NCBI GenBank assembly: GCA_903901425.1
Contig: CAIURC010000033.1
Span: 1-64,000, forward strand
DNA: 64,000 bases
Source of the DNA: an uncultured Spartobacteria bacterium
Lineage (GTDB): Bacteria > Verrucomicrobiota > Verrucomicrobiia > Chthoniobacterales > Chthoniobacteraceae
Direction: 5' to 3'
The first letter of the stretch is position 1, and each line of letters opens with the position of its first letter. The notes under the pieces were generated by a model that was not told where the DNA came from, ran no database searches, and saw only the letters and a list, made by a program, of their open reading frames with translations. Made by a program: the position numbers and the translations under genes. Below are positions 28,088 to 40,764 of the stretch, one piece after another.

Positions 28088-29872
28088 TCAGGGATCCAAA
28101 TCGCGGATGTGAATGTGAAGATTTTTCCAGCGGCGCTCCAAACCCGCCACGGTCTCCTTGGAAATCTGGGTGTCTGCGATATTCAGTGCACGCAAATTGT
28201 TCGCCGCAGCGCGCTGAATGGCGTCCACCGACCGATCTGAGACGGGTGCACCCGCCACATCCAGATCCCTCAATCCACGGATGGCCAGAAGCTCTTGGAA
28301 GACTTCATCGCGCAGACCGGGCGAACGGCAATCGAGCTTCCTGAGCCGGTGCATCTTGGCGATGGCGCGTGCCATCTCCACGCTGGTCTCGGTCACCTGC
28401 AAGGAAAGCTGTTCCAGCCCTCTGAACTGCTCCGCCAGAACTTCCGCATCGTGGGGCGCAAAAACTTTTCCATGGATCGACAAATGCTTGAGCTTGGGAA
28501 AGAGCTCGGCTGTCAACGCTGCTTGGGCAGCGAATTCCGGGCTGTCCGAAATCAGAATTCCAAACCCTTCCACGGGGTTCCGGCTTAAGCCCGCCAGGCC
28601 CTCCCGCGGCCATGGTCCTTCAAACAGGTACAATTTCTTCAGATGCCGAAACCCGCCCCAGGATGGCAGGACGGCCGGAGTCAAGGCGGTGGCATCGACC
28701 GCCAGAGATTCCAGCCGTTCGAATCTGGCCATTTCACGCCCGGCTGCGTCGTCCATTTGGGAACGGGCGAGGCGCAAATGCTGCAAATTTGGCACCCCGG
28801 CTGCCACCCCTTGAAAAAACTCGGCTGAAAGTCCCCCGCAGGTTGTCAGTTCCAACGTCCGCAGATCGGAACAACGCCCGATCCAACCGCCCACCTGGGC
28901 GTCCAGAGTTGTGTCGGAGATGTAGAGCGTCTGCAACTGGCGCAGGCCAGCAAGGAAAGACCAGTCCTCAGGCACCACCTCGAAGCCCCATACCCGCAGG
29001 TGGATCAAACCTTGGAAACGGCTGAGCTGGCGGAGTTCCCCGGGGAGAAGCCCGCGCCCAAAACCTGGCCGGGTCAGCTTCACACACCAGAAATCAACCT
29101 TGCCCCCGGGCAGGTCACCCACTTTTTCCAAAAACTGCGTCCTACCTTTTCGCCGGACCTCAATTGTGCCATTTCCGTCCAACACCCATTTCACGGCCTC
29201 CTCCAATTCTTTGCGCGTCACCGGCGCCCCCGTTTCCGGGTATGCACCTCCAGGGCTCGTCCCCCTTTCGCGGGCCGCCTCGGGAGCCGAAACCCGGTCT
29301 CCCCGGTGGATTTCCCACATCCGGGGCAGCCAGACCGACACCAGTTCCTGCCGGCCCGCCAACACCCGGCGCACCTCTCCCTCCAGATTCCTCTCAGTCA
29401 ACTGCTTTGCCCCCTGCACAAGCGCCGATTCAAATTCCAACACCAGTTTCCGAGAAGCCTCGTCCCAGGCCCGGTTGAGCTCAGGCAAGCGTTCCCGGTA
29501 AATCCGGCGGGCCCGGCGCAGAATCTCGAGGCTGGTATCCTGATCGTCCGTCGGCATCCGCCAAGATTCCGCGGGTACCCGCTCGGATTCCTGCCGGAAA
29601 ACCGCTGCCGCCTGCTTGTCTCCGGCGCGTTCGGCATCCTTGAGCGCCAACTGGACTTGTTCCGCGTACGCCAGCTTGGCCTCTGCAACTCCCGCCGCGT
29701 ATGCGTCCACCACGCGCTCCCGATAGGCCTTTTCAAATCCCGCCTTCAATTCCGTCATCCAGCCGGTTACGGAGGCGTCCGCGGTGTTTGCGGGAGATTC
29801 CTCGGCGCGGACCATTGCGCAAAACGCTGTCGCACAGACCATCACGAACATCTGGAGCGTGCGCGACCTCAT
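28088..29872 (-). CDS. Secreted LRR paralog P1
   Basis: 594 residues; leftmost member of a six-gene tandem family. Signal peptide (about 1-23, ending MVRAEE); a conserved helical region (about 33-195) with FEKAYRERVVDAYAAG, ERAGDKQAAAVFRQESERV and LNRAWDEASRKL; a Gly/Pro-rich variable linker; a hinge (KELEEAVKWVLDGNGTIEV) like the one that precedes LRRs in planctomycete proteins; then about a dozen irregular LRR-like repeats to the end (LRTLELTTCGG, LESLAVD, LRDLDVAG). It has no enzymatic motif. Exported, probably periplasmic or surface ligand-binding. Preceded by the conserved promoter at 29885-29923 and lacking a Shine-Dalgarno sequence. Convergent with the serine hydrolase gene. Confidence 0.85.
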   Translation of the reverse strand: MRSRTLQMFVMVCATAFCAMVRAEESPANTADASVTGWMTELKAGFEKAYRERVVDAYAAGVAEAKLAYAEQVQLALKDAERAGDKQAAAVFRQESERVPAESWRMPTDDQDTSLEILRRARRIYRERLPELNRAWDEASRKLVLEFESALVQGAKQLTERNLEGEVRRVLAGRQELVSVWLPRMWEIHRGDRVSAPEAARERGTSPGGAYPETGAPVTRKELEEAVKWVLDGNGTIEVRRKGRTQFLEKVGDLPGGKVDFWCVKLTRPGFGRGLLPGELRQLSRFQGLIHLRVWGFEVVPEDWSFLAGLRQLQTLYISDTTLDAQVGGWIGRCSDLRTLELTTCGGLSAEFFQGVAAGVPNLQHLRLARSQMDDAAGREMARFERLESLAVDATALTPAVLPSWGGFRHLKKLYLFEGPWPREGLAGLSRNPVEGFGILISDSPEFAAQAALTAELFPKLKHLSIHGKVFAPHDAEVLAEQFRGLEQLSLQVTETSVEMARAIAKMHRLRKLDCRSPGLRDEVFQELLAIRGLRDLDVAGAPVSDRSVDAIQRAAANNLRALNIADTQISKETVAGLERRWKNLHIHIRDLDP

Positions 29873-29884
29873 CAGGGTCCGGGA

Positions 29885-29923
29885 ATCTTAGCGCCGCTGC
29901 GATGGCGAGGCCAAGCTCCTTCT
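29885..29923 (-). promoter_or_regulatory. Conserved promoter of LRR paralog P1
   Basis: AGAAGGAGCTTGG, then exactly 18 nt, then GCTAAGAT. Read as TTGGNN-18-TANNNT it fits -35 and -10 elements, with 12 nt between the -10 and the ATG. The same element with identical internal spacing precedes P2, P3 and P4. Confidence 0.65.
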
Positions 29924-30011
29924 CAGAAGAGGATTCTGATTCCAGGCAGCGGATGGATTCAGCACCTGCCGGATCCATGCCCCTCGCCTGCCGCAATAGT
30001 CCCATCCCGGC

Positions 30012-31745
30012 CTATGGGATCCAGCCGATCTGGGTTGGAACCGTACGCAGAGAGAGCCCATTGAGCCCGGCCCGGTGGATCGCCTCGGTGGATTGGTCCG
30101 AGACAAGTGTGCCCGCGACATCCAGTTCCCTCAGGCTGCGGATCGTAAGAAGCTCCTTGAACACGTCGTCCCCCAAACCCGGAGCACGACAGATCAGGAT
30201 CCGGAGATGCGGCAGCCTTGCGACCGCTTTTGCCGCCTCCACATTCAACTCGACCCATTGCAGGTTCAGTCCCTCCAAGTTTCTGAGGTTCTCCACAATA
30301 GCCAGTGCATGAGGCACGCTCAATTTTTTGCCTTTGAGTTCAAGGGCCTTCAGCTTGGGAAACAGCTCCCCCATCAAAGCCACCTGCACCGGAAACTCGG
30401 GATGATTCGCATCCAAAAAACCCATCTTTTCAATCGGATGACGTTTCAACGCCTCGAGCACCTCCCGTGACCAATCCCCGTCAGACCAGACCAGCGAATG
30501 CAGGGCGCGGAGCCCAGTCCAGACGGGAAGGACTGCCGGGGTTAACCCAGTCCCATCCACAGTTAAAACCTCGAGCCGCTCCAACCCGCCCAACTCCATC
30601 CCGGCTTCATCCGGCACCCGGGAGCGGGTGAGTTTGAGATCCTTTAACCCGGGAACACCCGCAGCGATCTGCCTGAAAAACTCGGGCGTCAGGCCTTCAC
30701 AATCCCCCAATTCCAGAGCCCGTAATTTCTTGCACTGCGCCATCCACCCCGCCGCCCAGGTATCCAAACGCATTTGGCTCAAATGCAAAATCTCCAACTG
30801 ACGGAGCCCGGCAAGAAAGGGCCAATCCTCGGCGGCAAGATTGAATCCTCCAAGATACAGCTGTTGAAGACTCCGGAACTGTCCCAACCGACGGATCTCC
30901 CCAGGTTTTAATACCCGATCGAACCTTTCCCGGTTGAGGGAGACGGAAAAGAACTCAAATTTGCCCTTGGGCAAGTCGCCCACTTTTTGCAGCAACTGCA
31001 CCCTGCCATTTTGCCGGACATGGATCCTGCCGTTACCGGAAAGCACCCATTTCACAGTCTCCTCAAGATCCTTTCGGCTCACTGGCGCGCCCGTTTCCGG
31101 GTATCCGTCCATGGAACCCGCCCCCTTTTCACCGATTCCATCGGGTGCCGAGAGTCGGTCTCCGCGGTGGATCTCCCACATCTGGGGCAGCCAGACCGAA
31201 ACCAACTCCTGCCGGCACGCCAAGACCCGGCGGACCTCGCCCTCCAGATTCTTCCCAGCCAACCGCTGCGCTCCCTGCACCAGCGCGGATTCGAATTCCG
31301 AGGTGAGTTTCCGAGAAGCCTCGTCCCAGGCCCGGTTGAGTTCAGGCACCTTTTCCCGGTAGACCCGGCGTGCCCGGCGCAGAGTTTCAAGGCTGGTGTC
31401 CTGGTCGTCCGGGGGCATCCGCCAAGCTTCCTCCGCTGCCCGCTCGGATTCCTGGCGGAAAACCACCGCCGCCTGCTTGTCTCCGGCGCGTTCGGCCTCC
31501 TTGAGCGCCAACTGGATTTGGTCCAGATAGTCCTGTTTTGCCTCCGCCAAACCCGCCGCGTACGCATCCACCACGCGCTCCCGGTAGGCCTTTTCGAATC
31601 CCGCCTTCAATTCTGACAACCAGGCGGTCACAGACGCGTCCACGGGAGCGTCCACGGGCGCTAAAGACGCCACCTGCGCGGCGCACAGGCTTGGGAGCGA
31701 CGCCATGCGCAGCACCAAGAACATCTGGAGCACAAACCGCCTCAT
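30012..31745 (-). CDS. Secreted LRR paralog P2, shortened C-terminus
   Basis: 577 residues from the ATG at 31745, which follows the conserved promoter by 10 nt; longer in-frame starts would run into the promoter. Same architecture as P1: signal peptide (MRRFVLQMFLVLRM...), helical region with FEKAYRERVVDAYAAG, linker, KDLEETVKWVLSGNGRI hinge and LRR-like repeats. The last repeat is replaced by a short NGLSLRTVPTQIGWIP tail, about 25-30 residues fewer than P1, P3 and P4, suggesting a terminal deletion or frameshift. Otherwise intact. Confidence 0.82.
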   Translation of the reverse strand: MRRFVLQMFLVLRMASLPSLCAAQVASLAPVDAPVDASVTAWLSELKAGFEKAYRERVVDAYAAGLAEAKQDYLDQIQLALKEAERAGDKQAAVVFRQESERAAEEAWRMPPDDQDTSLETLRRARRVYREKVPELNRAWDEASRKLTSEFESALVQGAQRLAGKNLEGEVRRVLACRQELVSVWLPQMWEIHRGDRLSAPDGIGEKGAGSMDGYPETGAPVSRKDLEETVKWVLSGNGRIHVRQNGRVQLLQKVGDLPKGKFEFFSVSLNRERFDRVLKPGEIRRLGQFRSLQQLYLGGFNLAAEDWPFLAGLRQLEILHLSQMRLDTWAAGWMAQCKKLRALELGDCEGLTPEFFRQIAAGVPGLKDLKLTRSRVPDEAGMELGGLERLEVLTVDGTGLTPAVLPVWTGLRALHSLVWSDGDWSREVLEALKRHPIEKMGFLDANHPEFPVQVALMGELFPKLKALELKGKKLSVPHALAIVENLRNLEGLNLQWVELNVEAAKAVARLPHLRILICRAPGLGDDVFKELLTIRSLRELDVAGTLVSDQSTEAIHRAGLNGLSLRTVPTQIGWIP

Positions 31746-31755
31746 GTGATCAAAG

Positions 31756-31794
31756 AGCCTAGCGTCTTTGACAGGGCAACACCAAGCTCCTTCT
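31756..31794 (-). promoter_or_regulatory. Conserved promoter of LRR paralog P2
   Basis: AGAAGGAGCTTGG-N18-GCTAGGCT, identical in its fixed parts to the P1, P3 and P4 elements; 10 nt separate the -10-like TAGGCT from the start codon. Confidence 0.65.
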
Positions 31795-31815
31795 GGAGCC
31801 CCCACCCCTCGCGGT

Positions 31816-33612
31816 CTACCGCTCCAAACGAACCTCAGCGGACAATCCACGCAGGGACACCCCCTTGGCCCGGCGCTGTAGACTGGAACGGGCTCCACTC
31901 GAAATCTGCGTCCCGGTGACGTCCAACACCCGCAATCCGTTCATCCCGGCATGGAGAATGGCCTCAGCGGACTGGTCGGACACCCCCGTGTAAGCCACGT
32001 CCAACTCCCGCAATGTGCGGATCGCCAAAAACTCCTGAAACAACTCGTCCCCGACGCCCGAAGCCCGGCAGCAAAGGACCCGGAGACGGGGCAGCTTGGC
32101 CAGAATTTTGACTGCCTCCAGGCTGGGCAGCGCCCACTGCAGGTTCAAGACTTCCAAAGCGTTACAATGCTCCAGCAACGCCTGCGCCTGATTTGCTTGG
32201 AACTCTTTTCCTCTGAGGTCGAGCTGCTTCAGCTTTGGAAACTGTTTTCCCAACAGCGCAAGCTGAGCCGGGAGCTCCGGGTCGTCCGCATCCAGAAAGC
32301 CCAACCTTTCAATCGGACTCCGGCTCAGAGCCTCCAGTCCCTCTCTCGGCCATGGCCCGTCAAAGAGCCACAGCTTCTTCAGGTGCCGGAACCCGGCCCA
32401 GGAGGGCAGGACGGCGGGGGACAGCCCGGTGGAATCGACCGCCAGCGCCTCCAGCCGTCCAAACCGAGCCAGTTCGATCCCGGCCGTGTCTTGGACTCTG
32501 GAACCCGTCATCCGCAGGTCCAGCAGACCTGGAACAGCGGCAGCCAGCGCACTGAAAAACTCCGGGGAAAGCCCCTCGCAGCCCGTCAATTCCAAATGGC
32601 TCAGAGCCGAACACTGGCTCAGCCAGCGACCCAACCGGGCATCCAAACTCGCACCACTGATGTAGACTGTCTGCAAACGATGCAAGCCGGCCAGAAAACC
32701 CCAGTCCTCCGTGGGCACTGAGAATGCCCAGACCCCCAAATGCATCAAATTTTGGAACCGGCCAAGCTGCTGCAACTCCCCGGGCTGAAGGGCGCGGCCA
32801 AAAGTATGCCGATTCAGATGCACCGACCAGAATTCCACCTTGCCTCCGGGCAGATCACCCACTTTTTCCAGGAACTGAACCTGGTTGTTGCGTCGGATTT
32901 GGATTGTGCCTTTGCCCTCTAGAACCCATTTCACAGTCTCCTCCAATTCCTTCCGACTCACGCTCACTCCGTTTGCGGAGGGGACTCCCCCACCGCCTTC
33001 CCTTCGGCGGGCGACTCCATCAGCCACCGGCACCTGCGTTCCCCGGTGGCGCTCCCACATCTGCGGCAGCCACACTGCCACCAGTTCGCGCCGGCACGCC
33101 AACACCCGGCGGACCTCGCTGTCCAGATGCCTCGCCGTCAACCGTTGCGCGCCCTGTACTAGCGCCGCTTCAAACTCTGCCACCAGTTTCCGCGAGGCCT
33201 CGTCCCAAGCCCGGTTGAGCTCGGGCACCCGTTCCCGGTAGATCCGGCGTGCTCTGCGCAGGGTCTCGAGGCTGGTGTCTTGGTCGTCCAGCGGCATCCG
33301 CCAGTCCTCCGCCACCACCCGCTCGGATTCCTGTTTGAAAACCACCGCCGCCTGCCTGTCCCCGGCGCGTTCGGCATCCTTGAGCGCCAGCTGGATCTGT
33401 TCTGCATATTCCTTTCTGGCCTCTTCCAACCCCGCTTTGTGAACATCCACCACGCGTTCCCGGTAGGCTTTTTCGAATCCCGCCTTCATCTCCAACAACC
33501 AGGCGGTCACCGAAGTATCCGAGGGCTTGGTATTTGCCTCCTGCGCACCGCTTAGGCCTGAAAACCAACCCGCGCAAAGCACCACGAACAACTGGAGGAC
33601 CCGGGTCTGCAT
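31816..33612 (-). CDS. Secreted LRR paralog P3
   Basis: 598 residues. Signal peptide (QLFVVLCAGWFSGLSGAQE), helical region starting AWLLEMKAGFEKAYRERVVD and containing the same ERAGDRQAAVVFKQESERV and LNRAWDEASRKL blocks, linker, KELEETVKWVLEGKGTIQI hinge, then LRR-like repeats such as LSHLELTGCEGLSPEFF and LRELDVAYTGVSDQSAEAI. Closest in sequence to P4 (for example shared HKAGLEEARKEYAEQ). Promoter-like element at 33625-33663. Function unknown; no catalytic residues. Confidence 0.85.
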   Translation of the reverse strand: MQTRVLQLFVVLCAGWFSGLSGAQEANTKPSDTSVTAWLLEMKAGFEKAYRERVVDVHKAGLEEARKEYAEQIQLALKDAERAGDRQAAVVFKQESERVVAEDWRMPLDDQDTSLETLRRARRIYRERVPELNRAWDEASRKLVAEFEAALVQGAQRLTARHLDSEVRRVLACRRELVAVWLPQMWERHRGTQVPVADGVARRREGGGGVPSANGVSVSRKELEETVKWVLEGKGTIQIRRNNQVQFLEKVGDLPGGKVEFWSVHLNRHTFGRALQPGELQQLGRFQNLMHLGVWAFSVPTEDWGFLAGLHRLQTVYISGASLDARLGRWLSQCSALSHLELTGCEGLSPEFFSALAAAVPGLLDLRMTGSRVQDTAGIELARFGRLEALAVDSTGLSPAVLPSWAGFRHLKKLWLFDGPWPREGLEALSRSPIERLGFLDADDPELPAQLALLGKQFPKLKQLDLRGKEFQANQAQALLEHCNALEVLNLQWALPSLEAVKILAKLPRLRVLCCRASGVGDELFQEFLAIRTLRELDVAYTGVSDQSAEAILHAGMNGLRVLDVTGTQISSGARSSLQRRAKGVSLRGLSAEVRLER

Positions 33613-33624
33613 CTCGGTCCGGTG

Positions 33625-33663
33625 ACTCTAGCATGCCGAGATTCGCAAGCCCAAGCTCCTTCT
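33625..33663 (-). promoter_or_regulatory. Conserved promoter of LRR paralog P3
   Basis: AGAAGGAGCTTGG-N18-GCTAGAGT, 12 nt before the ATG of P3. The 18 intervening bases differ from those of the other copies, so the fixed parts are selectively conserved rather than simply recently duplicated. Confidence 0.65.
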
Positions 33664-33686
33664 GGAAGAAAGCTTCCCTACGCGCG

Positions 33687-35483
33687 CTACCGTTCCGGCT
33701 CTTGCACAGTCGGCAACACATGCACCGCCAACCCCTTAGTCCGGCGCTCGAGACTGGCTGCGGTCCCTTTTGAAATCCGGGTCCCGACCACAGTCAACTT
33801 CCGCAATCCATTCATCCCAGCACGGCGAATGGCCTCAGCGGACTGATCCGAAACTTGCGTGCCTACCACGTCCAGTTCCTGCAAAGTCCGGCTCGCCAAG
33901 AGTTCTTGGAACACGGGATCCCCCATGCCCGGAGCGCGGCAGGTGAGAGACTGGAGATGGGGCATACGGGCAAGAATTTTAGCCGCCTCCAAACTGGGCA
34001 GAGCCGACTGGACATCAAGTTCTTCCAGATTTTTGCAGGCCTCCAACACCGCCTGCGCCTGATTCGCCCCGAACTCTTTTCCTTTGAACTTAAGGGCTTT
34101 CAGCTTCGGAAAAAGCTCACCCACCAAGGCCATCTGCGCCAAGAACTCTGGATCATCCACATTCAACAAACCGAAACTTTCAATCGGACTCCGACTCAGA
34201 GCCTCCAACCCCTCCCTAGGCCATGGCCCGTCGAAAAGCTGCAGTGTCTTCAAGTGCCGGAATCCGGCCCACGATGGAAGGACGGCAGAGGTCAATCCGG
34301 TGGAATCCACAGCCAGCGACTCCAGCCGTTCAAACCGCGCCAGTTCACACCCATCCGCGTCTTGAATCTTGGATCCAGAAATCCGCAGCGCCTGTAACCC
34401 TGGCACCCCGGCAGCCAGCCCCCGGAAAAACTCGGCAGAAAGCCCCTGACAGCTCGTCAGTTCCAAGGCACTCAGCTGGGGTGACTGGCCAAGCCAGCGG
34501 CCCGAGCGGGTATCAAAAATCGTGTTACTGATGTAAACCCACTGCAACTGATGCAAACCCTCCAGAAATTCCCAGTTTTCCGGAGCCACCGAGAATCCCC
34601 ACACCCGCAAATGCTTCAATGTCTGGAACCGGCCGAGCCGCTGCAACTCCCCGGGCAGAAGTCCGCGGCCAAAATATTTTCGATGGAGCTCAACAGACCA
34701 GAAATCCACCCTGCCGCCGGGCAGGTCACCGACTTTTTCCAATTTCTGGATTTTCCCCTTTCGCACCACTTGGATCCTCCCATTTCCCTGGAGCACCCAT
34801 TTCACGGCTTCCTCCACCTCCTTCCGGCTCGCCGCTCCGTCGCTTCCTCCAGAATCTGAACTGGGGCCTTTGCCTCCTCCACCGCCTCCGCTAGGCACGG
34901 GCGACCGTTCTCCCCGGTGAACTTCCCACATCCGCGGCAGCCACACCGACACCAGTTCCCGCCGACTTTCAAGAACCCGGCGCACCTCACCGTCCAGGTT
35001 TCTCGCAGTCAACTGTCGCGCCCCCTGCAGGAGGGCTGACTCAAACTTTGCCACCAGTTTCCGAGAGGCTTCGTCCCATCCCCGGTTCAGTTCCGAAGCC
35101 CGGTCCCGGTAAATCCTGCGCGCCCTCCGCACAGCCTCCATGCTGGTGTCCTGATCATCCGGCGGCATGTGCCAGGACTCCTCCGCCACCCGCTCGGATT
35201 CCTGAAGGAACACCGCAGCCGCCTGTTTATCTCCGGCGCGTCCGGCCTCGTTCAGCGCCTGTTGGAGTTGTTCTGCATACTCCTTTCTGGCCTCTTCCAA
35301 CCCTGCTTTGTGAACATCCACCACCCGCTCCCGGTAGGACTTTTCAAAGCCCGCCTTCAAATCCGACAACCATCCGGCAACGGAAGCTCCCGAGGGATTG
35401 ATGTTCGCATCCTCCGCACTGCACAGGCCCGAAAACCAAGCCGCACAAAGCGCCACAAACAACTGGAGGACCCGGACTTGCAT
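33687..35483 (-). CDS. Secreted LRR paralog P4
   Basis: 598 residues, same domain order as P3: signal peptide (LQLFVALCAAWFSGLCSAE), helical region, a Gly/Ser-rich linker unlike those of its siblings (SGGGGGGKGPSSDSGGSDG), KEVEEAVKWVLQGNGRIQV hinge, LRR-like repeats including LSALELTSCQGLSAEFF and LQELDVVGTQVSDQSAEAI. The linker is the fastest-changing part across the family. Preceded by the conserved promoter at 35496-35534. Confidence 0.85.
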   Translation of the reverse strand: MQVRVLQLFVALCAAWFSGLCSAEDANINPSGASVAGWLSDLKAGFEKSYRERVVDVHKAGLEEARKEYAEQLQQALNEAGRAGDKQAAAVFLQESERVAEESWHMPPDDQDTSMEAVRRARRIYRDRASELNRGWDEASRKLVAKFESALLQGARQLTARNLDGEVRRVLESRRELVSVWLPRMWEVHRGERSPVPSGGGGGGKGPSSDSGGSDGAASRKEVEEAVKWVLQGNGRIQVVRKGKIQKLEKVGDLPGGRVDFWSVELHRKYFGRGLLPGELQRLGRFQTLKHLRVWGFSVAPENWEFLEGLHQLQWVYISNTIFDTRSGRWLGQSPQLSALELTSCQGLSAEFFRGLAAGVPGLQALRISGSKIQDADGCELARFERLESLAVDSTGLTSAVLPSWAGFRHLKTLQLFDGPWPREGLEALSRSPIESFGLLNVDDPEFLAQMALVGELFPKLKALKFKGKEFGANQAQAVLEACKNLEELDVQSALPSLEAAKILARMPHLQSLTCRAPGMGDPVFQELLASRTLQELDVVGTQVSDQSAEAIRRAGMNGLRKLTVVGTRISKGTAASLERRTKGLAVHVLPTVQEPER

Positions 35484-35495
35484 CTCAGGTTTTTA

Positions 35496-35534
35496 ACCAT
35501 AGCGCTCCAACCCCTCCGAGACCAAGCTCCTTCT
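35496..35534 (-). promoter_or_regulatory. Conserved promoter of LRR paralog P4
   Basis: AGAAGGAGCTTGG-N18-GCTATGGT, 12 nt before the P4 start codon. The -10-like hexamer TATGGT keeps the T1, A2 and T6 shared by all four copies. Confidence 0.65.
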
Positions 35535-35587
35535 CAAGGGCGGCTGCAGCTCTCTCTGGCATCGGGTTTATTGATCCCCCGAGGAAA

Positions 35588-35607
35588 AGCATCCTGGCCA
35601 GGATGCT
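35588..35607. repeat. Perfect 20-bp palindrome between P4 and P5
   Basis: AGCATCCTGG followed by its exact reverse complement CCAGGATGCT, without a loop, 20 nt after the P5 stop and 54 nt upstream of the P4 promoter element. Could be a protein-binding operator or a hairpin ending P5 transcription; there is no T run to support a terminator. Confidence 0.6.
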
Positions 35608-35627
35608 CGGGAGGGCTCTTCTCGCGT

Positions 35628-37419
35628 CTACTGAATCCCTTCTAAAGGAACGATGCGCACCGACAACCCCTTCACCCGGCGCTCCAGGGACTCCACCGCC
35701 TGCTTTGAAATCCGCGTTCCGGTTGCGTTCAAGAATCGCAGTCCGTTTGACCCGGCACGCTGAATGGCTTCCACCGAATGATCTGAGACCTGCGTCCCCT
35801 CGACATCCAGTTCTTCCAAACTCCGGATCGCCAAAAACTCTCGGAACAGGGTGTCTTCGACTTCTGCCGCACGGCAGGCCAGCACTCGGAGATGGGGCAA
35901 CTTGGCCAGAGTTTTGGCCGCCGCCAGACTCGGCTGCACACATCCGAGGTTGAGCACCTTCAAGTTTTTGAACTTCTCCACGAGGACCTCGGCATGGTTT
36001 GCACTCAAGGCTTTTCCATTCAGCTCCAACCCCAGGAGCTTGGGAAACAATTCCCCCACCAGGGCCAACTGCGCCGGCAACGCCGCGTTGTCCGTGTCCA
36101 AAAATCCAAACTTTTCAATGGGATGGCGACTCAAAGCCTCCAGAGCCTCCCGAGTCCAGTCTCCTCCAGGAAGAATCAAGGAGCGAAGGGAATGAATCCC
36201 TGCCCACGCAGGAAACACCCCCGGACTCAGCCCGGTGCCGTCCAAGATCAGGCTTTCGAGCCGCTCAAACCTTCCCAACTCGACACCCGCCTCCTCTCCC
36301 AACGCAGAACCTGAAAGAGACAACTGCCGCACCCCGGAGGCACCCGAGGCAACCGTACGCAAAAATTCCGGCGTCAGCCCCTCACAACCCACCAACTCCA
36401 GAGTTTTCAACTCCTTGCACCGCGCAATCCACGTTGCTGCCCCCGCGCTCAGAGGAATCCCCTTGAAATGCAAAATCTCCAACTGACGCAGCCCGGAAAA
36501 ATAGGACCAGTCTTCGGGGGCCACGGTGAACCCACCTAGGTAAAGCCGCTGCAAACTCCGAAACGCGCCCAAGCGGCGCAACTCCCCTGGGAGCGGTGGG
36601 CGATCGAACCCAGCCCTGGTCAGGGAGACGGACCAGAACTCCACGGCGCCCCCGGGCAGGTTACCCACCTTGCCTAATCTCTGGAGTCTGCCGAAGCGCC
36701 GGACGTAGATGCCCCCCCTGTTTTCAAGCACCCACTTCACGGCCTCCTCCAATTCTTTCCGGCTCACCCCCCGCACTTTTTCCTGCCGGATCTGAACCGG
36801 TGCCTCCTTCGGATTTGACGCTTCCATCTGCCACTGACAGCCGTTCGCCCCGGTGGACTTCCCACATCCGCGGCAACCAGACCGCCACCAACTCCCGCCG
36901 GCATTCCAACACCCGGCGCACTTCCCTCTCCAAATTTTTCGCAGTCAACTGTCGCGCCCCCTGTACAAGCGTCGATTCAAATTCTGAAACCAGTTTCCGC
37001 GACGCCTCGTCCCAAGCCCGGTTGAGTTCAGACACTTGCTCGCGGTAGATCTGCCGAGCCCTCCGCACAACCGCCATACTCGTATCTTGGTCGTCTGGCG
37101 GCATTCGCCAGGATTCCTCCGCCACCCGCTCGGATTCCTGACGGAACACCACTGCCGTCTGCTTGTCTCCGGCGCGTTCGGCCTCCTTGAGCGCCAACTG
37201 AAGTTGCTCCGCATACTCCCGTCTGGCCACCTCCAACCCCGCTGCATACACATCCAACACCCGCTCCCGGTACGCCTTTTCAAAGCCCGCCTTCAATTCC
37301 GCCATCCAGCCCGTCACGGAAGCGCCCACGGGCTTTATAGGCGCCTCCTGAGCACCGCATGGGCTGGGTAACAGCGTCAGAAAAACAGAGCAGAAGAACG
37401 GGAGGAATCGCGCCGCCAC
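35628..37419 (-). pseudogene. LRR paralog P5, frameshifted at a G6 tract
   Basis: Same architecture as P1 to P4 but split in two frames. The 5-prime part, from a GTG at 37419 with signal sequence FLPFFCSVFLTLLPSPCGAQ, covers the helical region through WLPRMWEVHRGERL; the 3-prime part resumes with VSRKELEEAVKWVLENRGGI and all LRR-like repeats. The break falls in the variable linker: removing one G from the six-G run (plus-strand C run 36767-36772) restores a continuous frame giving SAGVSRKELEE, exactly as in the siblings. Both halves are otherwise undamaged, so it may be a recent mutation, slippage-controlled expression or a base-calling error. It lacks the conserved promoter of P1-P4; a TTGCAT-N17-TACTGA pair before the GTG is a candidate. 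Confidence 0.75.
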
Positions 37420-37505
37420 CCTCCGATCAGTACGGTTTTCAATGCACAAATGCAACGCTGGCTCGTCGCTCTGCCGGCCGGACACCAGCCCGGTTTCCCC
37501 CGCGC

Positions 37506-39257
37506 CTAATCGAGGAGAACCGTCAGTCTCGGAAACCGGTTCCTCAAAGCCATTCCGAACTCCGATGAAACGCGTGTCTGTCTGAGGTTCAACCAAATCA
37601 GCTCCCGCATTCTCCCGTCGGCGATTCCTTGGAGCCCCGAATCCGTAACCCCCGTGTGCGCCAGATCCAAACTTTTCAGGTTCCGAATCTGCATCATTTC
37701 GGCAAGCAGATCATCTCCGAGTCTGGACGACCGGAAACAAACCTCCTCCAGATGACTCAAATCCGACAGAACCTTGAGCGCCTCCGGATCGGGCAAGATG
37801 CCGGAAAAGTCCACCTTCACACACTTTTTGAAATGCCGGGCCAAAGACCTCACCTGGTCGGCCGTCAGTCCTTTTCCCGCCATTCCCAGCGCTCGGAGCT
37901 TTGGAAAACACCGGCCGATTTCTGCCACCTTGCGATCGAAATTCACCCACTCGGTGCTGAGCCCACCAAGGCTTTTCAGCGGCAGCCCTTTCAAATGCTC
38001 CAATCCCTCCCACGGCCCTTCAAACAATGTCAGTTCCCTCAGGCTCCGCAGCCCGCTCAACGCGGGAAAACTTTTGCAGCTGAGCCCCGTGTGGTTCAGG
38101 TGCAACTCCGTGAGTGTGCTGTGAACCGCTATCTCCTGAGCCACAGAATCCTCCAGAGCCGAATTCTTTAGGTCCAGAGAACGAAGATGGGAGAGCCCGG
38201 CACCAAGTTCCCGGAAAAACTCGGCCGTCAGACCCTGACACCCTGTGATCTCCAGGTGGCAGAGCAGTGAACACTGGGACAACCACGACCCAACCCGCGC
38301 GTTCACCCTGCCTCCCCGCAACACAAACCTCCGCAACTGTCGCAACTCACTCAGGAACGAGAACTCCTCCGGGGCGCTATCAAAACCCACCAATCCCAAA
38401 TGCCGGACCGAACGGAAGCGGGCCAGATGCTGGAGTTCCCCTGGAAACAGAGGCCTCCCAAACTTTGCCCGGTCCAGAGTGACCGCCAAAAAATCCACAC
38501 GCCCCTGGGGCAGAGCGGTTTCCCTCTCCAAAGTCACCGTTTTTCCCCTGTGAAAAATGGTCACCTCGCCGCTCCCCTCCAAGACCCATTTTACCGCCGC
38601 GACCAGGGCCCGCCGATTGCCAGCGCGCTCCCGGCCCTCCCCCGGATCGCCCCCCCCGATCTTTGCCGCATCCAATGCCGGCGGGCGTAGGCTGAGCATC
38701 CGGGGCATCCATACAGACATCAGATCCCTTCTGGCAGCCTGAACTCTGCTCACCTCATGCGCCAGGTTGCGCGCGCTCAACTGCCGCACCCCCTGCACCA
38801 ACGCCGCATCAAATTCCACCCGCACCTGCCGAGCCGCCATCTCCCAGTCCCGATTCAACTGAACCATCATCTCCCGGTAATTCCGACGCGCCCTCCGCAA
38901 ATACTCGAGCGTTGTGTCCTCATCCGTGCTGGGCATTTGCCAATCCTCGCTTTTCAATGCCTCCAACTCCTGGCGGAACACCGACGCATCCCGCTGGTCT
39001 CCCACCCGTTCCGCATCTGAAAGACCGTACTGAACCTGCTCGAGGTACATCTCCCGCGCCTCAACCACCCCTTTCCGGTGCTGCTCCACCACCCGATCCC
39101 GGTACACCTGCTCGAAACGCTTCTCCAGATCCGACAACCATTCTGACACCCGGCCGTCTTCTGGCGCCGCCTCTGCATGAAGCACGTCGCCTCCTCCAAG
39201 CAGAGCCATCCCCCACAACCCAACCAAAACCCAAAAAAACCGCCATAAACACTTCAT
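37506..39257 (-). CDS. Secreted LRR paralog P6, most diverged
   Basis: 583 residues from the ATG at 39257, preceded by CCGGAG. Signal peptide (LWRFFWVLVGLWGMALLGGG), then the same helical region in diverged form (FEQVYRDRVVEQHRKG, ERVGDQRDASVFRQELEAL, LEYLRRARRNYREM), hinge (ALVAAVKWVLEGSGEVTI) and LRR-like repeats. It differs at many otherwise invariant positions and lacks the P1-P4 promoter element, so it is probably the oldest copy or a separately recruited one. It is first in the array and divergent from a sulfatase gene across a 115-nt, fairly AT-rich gap. Confidence 0.82.
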   Translation of the reverse strand: MKCLWRFFWVLVGLWGMALLGGGDVLHAEAAPEDGRVSEWLSDLEKRFEQVYRDRVVEQHRKGVVEAREMYLEQVQYGLSDAERVGDQRDASVFRQELEALKSEDWQMPSTDEDTTLEYLRRARRNYREMMVQLNRDWEMAARQVRVEFDAALVQGVRQLSARNLAHEVSRVQAARRDLMSVWMPRMLSLRPPALDAAKIGGGDPGEGRERAGNRRALVAAVKWVLEGSGEVTIFHRGKTVTLERETALPQGRVDFLAVTLDRAKFGRPLFPGELQHLARFRSVRHLGLVGFDSAPEEFSFLSELRQLRRFVLRGGRVNARVGSWLSQCSLLCHLEITGCQGLTAEFFRELGAGLSHLRSLDLKNSALEDSVAQEIAVHSTLTELHLNHTGLSCKSFPALSGLRSLRELTLFEGPWEGLEHLKGLPLKSLGGLSTEWVNFDRKVAEIGRCFPKLRALGMAGKGLTADQVRSLARHFKKCVKVDFSGILPDPEALKVLSDLSHLEEVCFRSSRLGDDLLAEMMQIRNLKSLDLAHTGVTDSGLQGIADGRMRELIWLNLRQTRVSSEFGMALRNRFPRLTVLLD

Positions 39258-39372
39258 CTCCGGAGCATTAATGGCCCAATCTTGGCAAATAAAGATCTTT
39301 AAGTGTCCTAAATCCGCTGACTCCGCAACTTTTGCCACTCAACCCGGTTTTTCTCTCTGTAGCCTCTCTCCC

Positions 39373-40764
39373 ATGCACCGCGCCCTCCCTGCCCTTTTCG
39401 CACTGACCAGCCTCGCATCCCTGAATGCCGCCCCGCCCAACATCGTCCTGTTCCTCGCAGACGACCTCGGCTACGGCGACCTCGGCTGCTTCGGACATCC
39501 GATCATTCAGACCCCAAACCTAGACGCCTTTGCCAAACAGGGAGCACGCCTGACCCAGTGCTACGCCGCCAGCGCCGTCTGCAGCCCGTCCCGCTCCGCC
39601 CTCCTCACCGGACGCACCCCGTACCGGAACGGCGTGTTCACCTGGCTGGCAGAAGGCTCCGAAGCCCATCTCCGGCAGTCGGAAATCACGCTTCCGAGCC
39701 TGCTGCGCTCGGCCGGTTACGCCACCTGTCATGCCGGCAAATGGCACCTGAACGGCCTCTTCAACAACCCGGCCCAGCCCCAACCCGGCGACCATGGCTA
39801 CGACTGGTGGATGGCCACGCAGAACAACGCCGCGCCGTCCCACCAAAACCCGGAAAACTTTGTCCGCAACGGGGTCCCGGCTGGGAAACTCGAGGGCTAT
39901 TCCGCGCCGCTCGTGGTCCAGGAAGCCAGCCAGTGGCTCCGGGAAAAACGCGACCCCGCCAAACCCTTCTTCCTCTCGGTCTGGACCCACGAACCCCATT
40001 ACCCGATCAAGTCTGACCCGGCATTCAAGGCCCGCTATCCGGATCTCCAAGACGACCTCCAGCGCGAACACCACGCGAATGTCACGCAGATGGACGCCGC
40101 ATTCGGCGAACTGCTCCGCGTCCTGGATGAACTCAAGCTCTCGGAAAACACCTTCGTGTTCTTCACCTCTGACAACGGCCCTGAGGGCGATGGCAACAAG
40201 GGGCCGGGCCGCGGTTCCTCCGGCGGGTTGCGCGGCAGAAAACGCGACCTCCACGAGGGCGGGATCCGCGTCCCGGGCATGGTCCGCTGGCCCGGCAAGA
40301 TCCCGGCCGGCACCACCGTCCATGCCCCGGTGATTGGCAGCGACCTACTCCCCACCGTCCTTGCGCTCACCGGCGTCGACAAAAAACCTCTCGGGACGCG
40401 CACGATCGACGGCACCGATGTGCTCCCGCTCCTCAACGGAACCTCCGTGGCCGTGCCCAGGATCCAGCCGCTGTTCTGGCGGCTCGACATGGCCCCGAAC
40501 GCCAAGGTGGCGCTCCGGGTGGGAAACCTGAAAATCCTGACCGACGAAAGCCGGTCCCAGTTTGAGTTCTATGATCTGGAGAGCGACCCGAAGGAAACCA
40601 CGGATCTGCAGACACAACGGCCCGCTGATTTCCAGAGTTTCAAAGCCCTGCTGCTCTCGCACATCACGGCGGTGGAAGCGGAAGGCCCGGACTGGTTCAA
40701 ACGCCTCAACCCCAGTGGCGCGAGGCCGAAGGGCGAAACCGGCGCAAAAAAATCCGCGGAGTAA
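39373..40764 (+). CDS. Secreted sulfatase (S1 family)
   Basis: 463 residues. Signal peptide (LPALFALTSLASLNA), then the N-terminal metal site NIVLFLADDLGYGDLG and the formylglycine motif C70-S-P-S-R, with GRTPYRNG following. A second metal site FFTSDNGPEG and the C-terminal subdomain are present, so it appears active, provided a formylglycine-generating enzyme matures Cys70. Such sulfatases desulfate polysaccharides and glycosaminoglycans in the periplasm; the substrate is unknown. The start at 39373 was preferred because the preceding 34 residues of the frame look non-coding. Confidence 0.92.
   Translation: MHRALPALFALTSLASLNAAPPNIVLFLADDLGYGDLGCFGHPIIQTPNLDAFAKQGARLTQCYAASAVCSPSRSALLTGRTPYRNGVFTWLAEGSEAHLRQSEITLPSLLRSAGYATCHAGKWHLNGLFNNPAQPQPGDHGYDWWMATQNNAAPSHQNPENFVRNGVPAGKLEGYSAPLVVQEASQWLREKRDPAKPFFLSVWTHEPHYPIKSDPAFKARYPDLQDDLQREHHANVTQMDAAFGELLRVLDELKLSENTFVFFTSDNGPEGDGNKGPGRGSSGGLRGRKRDLHEGGIRVPGMVRWPGKIPAGTTVHAPVIGSDLLPTVLALTGVDKKPLGTRTIDGTDVLPLLNGTSVAVPRIQPLFWRLDMAPNAKVALRVGNLKILTDESRSQFEFYDLESDPKETTDLQTQRPADFQSFKALLLSHITAVEAEGPDWFKRLNPSGARPKGETGAKKSAE

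Follow-up and report, generated by a model that had tools for sequence, protein, structure and literature searches.

A tandem array of putatively exported helical-LRR proteins sharing ectodomain modules with receptor-type Ser/Thr kinases of Verrucomicrobiota

In the window, the whole stretch of 64,000 nucleotides analyzed from an uncultured Spartobacteria bacterium (Chthoniobacteraceae, Verrucomicrobiota), six paralogous genes were found at positions 28088-39257, all co-directional on the minus strand, as the original prediction had stated. The array is genuine and goes far beyond what chance would produce, although one of its genes is broken and another shortened. The ectodomain modules of the encoded proteins, a helical module, an alpha-beta cap and an LRR arc, are common to the array and to receptor-type Ser/Thr kinases. 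With moderate confidence, P1 to P6 are regarded as the outer half of these Verrucomicrobiota kinases in an exported form, with the kinase itself missing. The genes are organized as follows:

28088..29872, minus strand: P1, with signal peptide, helical module (29306-29779), linker, alpha-beta cap and LRR arc
30012..31745, minus strand: P2, P1-type architecture, helical module at 31167-31643, early TAG and last LRR missing
31816..33612, minus strand: P3, P1-type architecture, helical module at 33046-33522, the copy modelled with AlphaFold2
33687..35483, minus strand: P4, P1-type architecture, helical module at 34917-35390
35628..37419, minus strand: P5, helical module (36853-37326) and cap-LRR part (35631-36758) in different frames
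37506..39257, minus strand: P6, helical module at 38688-39161, the most divergent member of the array

Over the full length, P1, P2 and P4 are 60-67% identical to P3 and P6 is 41% identical. The nearest relative of P6 is an unlinked copy on contig C158 (51%). Extra copies are located on other contigs of the genome, namely C158 (41%), C189 (29%) and C41 (24%), and a further one on C21 is a fragment cut by the contig end. Three sequence blocks of the helical module, FEKAYRERV, ERAGDKQAA and a third one, had been described as near-invariant in all six proteins. This holds for P1 to P5, but the versions in P6 are looser (FEQVYRDRV, ERVGDQRDA and LNRDWEMAARQV). Likewise, the proposed uniform architecture was recovered overall, except that P2 ends early and lacks the final LRR of its paralogs and that P5 is frameshifted. 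In P5, the reading frame switches within the linker, close to a G6 run located around position 36770. P5 has no ATG start, the likeliest start being the GTG at 37419, and represents either a broken gene or an assembly error.

The structure of P3 was predicted with AlphaFold2 from 15 sequences (pLDDT 83, pTM 0.62). The model comprises a signal helix (residues 2-18), a four-helix region (32-83, 86-100, 116-160 and 164-192), a disordered linker (190-216), an alpha-beta-beta cap built of a helix plus strands (220-267) and 13 strand-helix LRR units up to residue 588. These units form a solenoid of about 24 residues each, and each of the five proteins with a complete frame is hit by LRR models of Pfam. 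The earlier count of about 12 LRR-like repeats agrees with the 12-13 seen here. The signal peptide proposed before is also borne out, as the N-terminus is signal-peptide-like by a hydropathy heuristic and the signal helix is present in the P3 model. No TM-like segment follows it in the array proteins by the same heuristic, and these heuristics point to putatively exported proteins. A Pkinase match was found by Pfam in none of P1-P4 and P6, and a cell-wall or outer-membrane sorting domain, the mark of internalins and other surface-anchored LRR adhesins, was detected neither by Pfam nor by NCBIfam, sorting being poorly catalogued in this phylum.

In a structure comparison using VIA, the LRR arc of P3 matched FBXL2 (Z 29.3, rmsd 6.3, 350 aligned residues), FBXL17 (Z 27.0), Legionella 4q62 (Z 24.6), RipG4/GALA (Z 24.5, rmsd 4.4, 330 aligned, 21% identity) and ribonuclease inhibitor (Z about 23-24). 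The LRR part of the predicted structure thus has its nearest counterparts in the FBXL/ribonuclease-inhibitor/GALA class and qualifies as a GALA/CC-type arc. Such LRR proteins of the GALA/GL type (cysteine-containing class), e.g., GALA/RipG of Ralstonia, resemble the array proteins in their arc fold and in their units of about 24 residues. Unlike GALA/RipG, the array proteins are not type III effectors and possess a signal peptide. They have no Pfam F-box match, the place of the F-box being occupied by the signal peptide and the helical module, and their LRR arc is fused to this unrelated helical module and to the alpha-beta cap. GALA-like LRRs were previously reported in the Planctomycetes Gemmata and Rhodopirellula (PMC2244805).

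The helical module consists of about 150 residues with four predicted helices, which form two helical hairpins. Modelled alone, it gave a confident fold (pLDDT 92, pTM 0.79). The positions W8, E65, P77, D80, R92, R96, L121, L128, R144 and W151 are invariant or nearly so. Searches against Pfam, NCBIfam and PADLOC returned chance-level matches only and no family model. Among the candidates rejected were PSII_Pbs31, which at E 6.5e-4 stayed under its cut-off, and MreC, which matched at chance level. A sequence profile search of the PDB yielded designed helical proteins only, with E 0.2 or worse. Using the helical model, Foldseek gave no convincing match to a solved structure (best E 0.75), the best VIA match was a designed helix bundle (Z 9.9), which is background for helical bundles, and the BFVD search returned nothing either. 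An internal duplication of the module, in which the hairpins align in register (12-44 to 17-49), is suggestive only (P 0.03). In the literature searched, no description of the helical domain or of the array was found. The original prediction, which knew of no described system with this combination, is in so far supported as the helical module is an uncatalogued domain with no Pfam or NCBIfam family, but the combination itself is not isolated.

This became apparent with a profile (A2) of 24 helical-module sequences, the six array copies and 18 others. The module was detected in 13 of 40 genomes of the family and in 27 of 289 sampled genomes of the phylum Verrucomicrobiota. The helical region therefore occurs beyond the array. 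When genome contigs were searched with the helical alignment, 17 loci were obtained, including Chthoniobacter flavus Ellin428 and MAGs of Spartobacteria/Chthoniobacteraceae, and the full-length alignment found no match among these contigs. Viral contigs searched with P3 gave no match either, so there is no sign of a phage origin.

Two classes of proteins carry the module. In the secreted class, it follows a signal peptide and is succeeded by LamG, FGE, Lectin_C or unassigned C-termini, or by cap and LRR as in the array, the copies on C158, C189 and C41, and the genomes G001 and G002. A cap-LRR part directly behind a signal peptide, without the helical module, was found at locus L044, which shows the two modules to be separable. 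In the second class, the module is joined to kinases. Seven proteins have the order Pkinase, TM, helical module and LRR (two in G008 and one each in G013, G025, G029, G031 and the Verrucomicrobiaceae-like G159), some of them with DUF1080 or a C-type lectin domain between TM and helical module. An eighth one can be inferred for G028, since its frame of 1557 aa corresponds to one of 1558 aa in G013. Furthermore, the LRR is replaced by an FGE-sulfatase domain in G008 and G029 and by DUF1080 in G282 and G291.

Of the 13 kinases examined, 12 have a TM-like stretch scoring 1.6 or more that separates the kinase from the helical module (1.48 in the remaining one, from G013), and nothing hydrophobic above 1.52 was observed downstream of the module. 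This places the module on the outer side of the kinases. In addition, three kinases match the cap-LRR profile of the array immediately behind their helical module, those from G159 (41 bits, profile positions 13-336), G008 contig C164 (42 bits, 18-203) and G029 contig C139 (30 bits, 12-218). In a tree of 36 helical modules, the label "kinase" requires four changes, at least two of them forced by the starred branches, and hence the kinase was probably gained or lost more than once. The modules of the array and of C158 form a clade (100/100) on a long branch, whose exact position relative to the kinase modules is not fixed by this tree.

Single-span Ser/Thr kinases of Planctomycetota and Verrucomicrobiota are known to carry periplasmic sensor domains like DUF1080 and the sulfatase-modifying domain (PMC11032199). 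The helical module, in seven cases together with an LRR arc, is the extracytoplasmic part of such kinases. Unlike them, P1 to P6 are putatively exported stand-alone ectodomains without a kinase domain or a transmembrane segment. The LRR arc class and sensor-bearing kinases as a theme were thus already known. What is new is the uncatalogued helical module that these architectures have in common, as well as the tandem, recombined kinase-less set. This widespread extracytoplasmic domain ties kinases, lectin-like domains and LRR arcs together and offers a handle on kinase sensing in Verrucomicrobiota. The array would be a bacterial example of receptor ectodomains that lack the kinase and are duplicated in tandem and recombined, for which a direct search for ligands is possible.

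Plant receptor-like proteins are kinase-less counterparts of LRR receptor kinases and often occur in tandem clusters. The relation between receptor-like proteins and receptor-like kinases in plants may serve as a comparison of the way of working only, no homology being claimed. Unlike the plant proteins, those of the array have no membrane anchor.

Judged by sequence and structure prediction, each unit of the array consists of two modules on a flexible linker, a four-helix rod and an alpha-beta cap with a curved GALA/CC-type LRR arc. Across the phylum, the rod has a membrane anchor or signal peptide on one side and a binding-type domain on the other, and it may function as a stalk or, in the kinases, as a signal-coupling or dimerizing segment. 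The LRR arc is the likely binding surface, and its partner, whether in the periplasm, on the cell surface or outside the cell, could be a protein, a peptide or a glycan. Because the array proteins have neither a kinase nor a transmembrane segment, they would act by binding alone, i.e., by capture, scaffolding, adhesion or presentation, and would not signal on their own. LRR arcs can also have non-recognition roles.

The host genome has 20 Pkinase matches, and none of the 20 contains the helical module. A role as soluble decoy or co-receptor for a cognate module-bearing kinase is on this basis not supported in this genome, and direct binding by capture, adhesion or surface scaffolding is preferred. 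Near the secreted member of G001, one unrelated kinase-like ORF was found; elsewhere no kinase gene lies beside the secreted members.

The long helical rod, the signal peptide and the missing transmembrane segment would also suit secreted structural or adhesive envelope proteins, in which the rod oligomerizes or packs in the envelope, the LRR arcs serve as spacers or as adhesins of a general kind, and the expansion reflects dosage. The conservation described below, purifying throughout and strongest in the helical part, is compatible with this as well. However, sister architectures join the helical module to kinases and binding domains, the LRR halves of P1 to P5 (49-68% identity) differ more than a pure need for dosage would demand, and each of P1 to P4 has kept a promoter-like block of its own. 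An envelope role is therefore considered unlikely, although it deserves to be kept in mind.

Among P1 to P5, pN/pS amounts to 0.24 in the helical module, 0.42 in the cap, 0.44 in the LRR part and 0.71 in linker and signal peptide, and all regions are under purifying selection. Neither the values per region nor the exposed LRR positions gave any sign of positive selection. The prediction that linker and repeats vary more than the helical region was confirmed, but part of this gradient is also shown by synonymous sites. In 10 of 10 pairs, the helical half is less diverged at these sites than the LRR half (mean 0.48 vs. 0.66), so the conservation of the helical region is in part explained by homogenization of the 5' half through conversion or recombination.

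Furthermore, P1 is a mosaic, with residues 1 to about 240 nearest to P2, with which nucleotide identity is highest in this part, and the rest nearest to P3/P4. The grouping of P1 with P2 is rejected by the LRR-half data (AU p = 4e-5), and the helical data alone do not decide the grouping (p 0.13 for P1+P3+P4). By these comparisons, P1 is a chimera with recombination near the linker/cap. Tandem duplication, homogenization of the 5' half and recombination near the linker would together produce a shared stalk with differing LRR arcs, and different putative partners are therefore likely.

Such a pattern could also result from a repertoire of diverse proteins for the recognition of other cells or phages, in which selection to tell partners apart drives the diversification of the LRR arcs. 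LRR and linker indeed diverge more than the stalk, P1 has its breakpoint at the linker/cap, and polar positions of the exposed strand are somewhat more variable than polar helix positions (0.56 vs. 0.44), a difference within about 1.5 standard errors. Against this, the LRR part has the low pN/pS given above, relatives do not have the array, its neighbors are housekeeping or carbohydrate genes, and no substantial match to a defense family was obtained with PADLOC. A repertoire of this kind is rather improbable. The variation that had been read as a signal of a recognition family does not support that reading, given the purifying selection everywhere, the homogenized helical half and the barely higher variability of exposed positions. 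A recognition role of the array is plausible but unproven. We give still less credence to the far-reaching version, in which the module would be a dedicated extracytoplasmic coupling or oligomerization domain of a Verrucomicrobiota receptor system. The array would then be a locally recombining set of soluble receptors that share a stalk, exchange their LRR arcs and associate with one another in order to discriminate ligands or neighboring cells. An AVAST Avs1c match was discarded, as it covers a cap stretch of 32-47 residues in P4 only (PADLOC, E 0.003, 17.7 bits vs. a cut-off of 70).

The pepF-TPR-beta-lactamase-like neighbors of the array are syntenic in G002 and G003 with no array behind them, and the pepF-TPR synteny is found in C. 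flavus, again without the array. A similar array was detected in none of the other genomes of the family (40 searched), the only adjacent pair being in G025. As far as sampled, these comparisons indicate a lineage-specific expansion.

Finally, a 13-base block, AGAAGGAGCTTGG, was identified upstream of four genes:

29911..29923, minus strand: AGAAGGAGCTTGG block upstream of P1
31782..31794, minus strand: AGAAGGAGCTTGG block upstream of P2
33651..33663, minus strand: AGAAGGAGCTTGG block upstream of P3
35522..35534, minus strand: AGAAGGAGCTTGG block upstream of P4

It is absent before P5 and P6. About 20 bases further downstream, a GCTANNNT-like box follows just 5' of the start codon, and these pairs are probably individual candidate promoters with very short leaders. 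A genome-wide regulon is not claimed, since the 16 matches elsewhere with a single mismatch are close in number to the 11 of the reversed control pattern.

The frameshift and missing ATG of P5, the truncation of P2 and the absence of the array from other family genomes could be taken as signs that the tandem duplicates are in decay and that only one or two of them still have a role. This is the least probable explanation, as long open frames are retained in five copies, at a dN/dS of about 0.2, and the 13-base block is identical before four genes despite a synonymous divergence of half or more.

The 13-base block AGAAGGAGCTTGG is located in identical copies ahead of four paralogs of the LRR protein array, P1 to P4:

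29911-29923, minus strand, 13-base block before P1
31782-31794, minus strand, 13-base block before P2
33651-33663, minus strand, 13-base block before P3
35522-35534, minus strand, 13-base block before P4

In each case it is followed by a -10-like box (GCTANNNT), approximately 12 bases upstream of the ATG, which suggests that each of these genes has its own promoter and is transcribed nearly leaderless. The P5 linker switches frame at 36760-36790 beside the G6 tract GTGCGGGGGGTGAGC, and this could be an assembly error, decay or phase variation.

Beside the array, a sulfatase gene (39271-40764) is encoded divergently. The sulfatase expansion in the family is very large, with dozens to >100 matches per genome (85 in G002, 121 in G008).

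In the family genomes searched, adjacent helical-module genes besides the array were found only as the L083 pair (G025:C120:149099-150757), the C-terminal domains of which are unassigned. A 2304 aa open frame in a Chthoniobacteraceae MAG (L018, G025:C124:3646-6225) comprises numerous LRR blocks, which match the LRR profile of the array. Chthoniobacter flavus encodes a membrane-anchored helical-LRR protein (L036, G018:C60), a tractable relative in a cultured species, with a second LRR protein gene immediately upstream. Finally, L088 (G029:C139:1-6500) is a kinase-TM-helical-cap-LRR receptor. Its cap (AVKWLVANGG) is similar in form to that of the array (VKWVLEGKG), and the receptor is a well-suited candidate for ligand studies.
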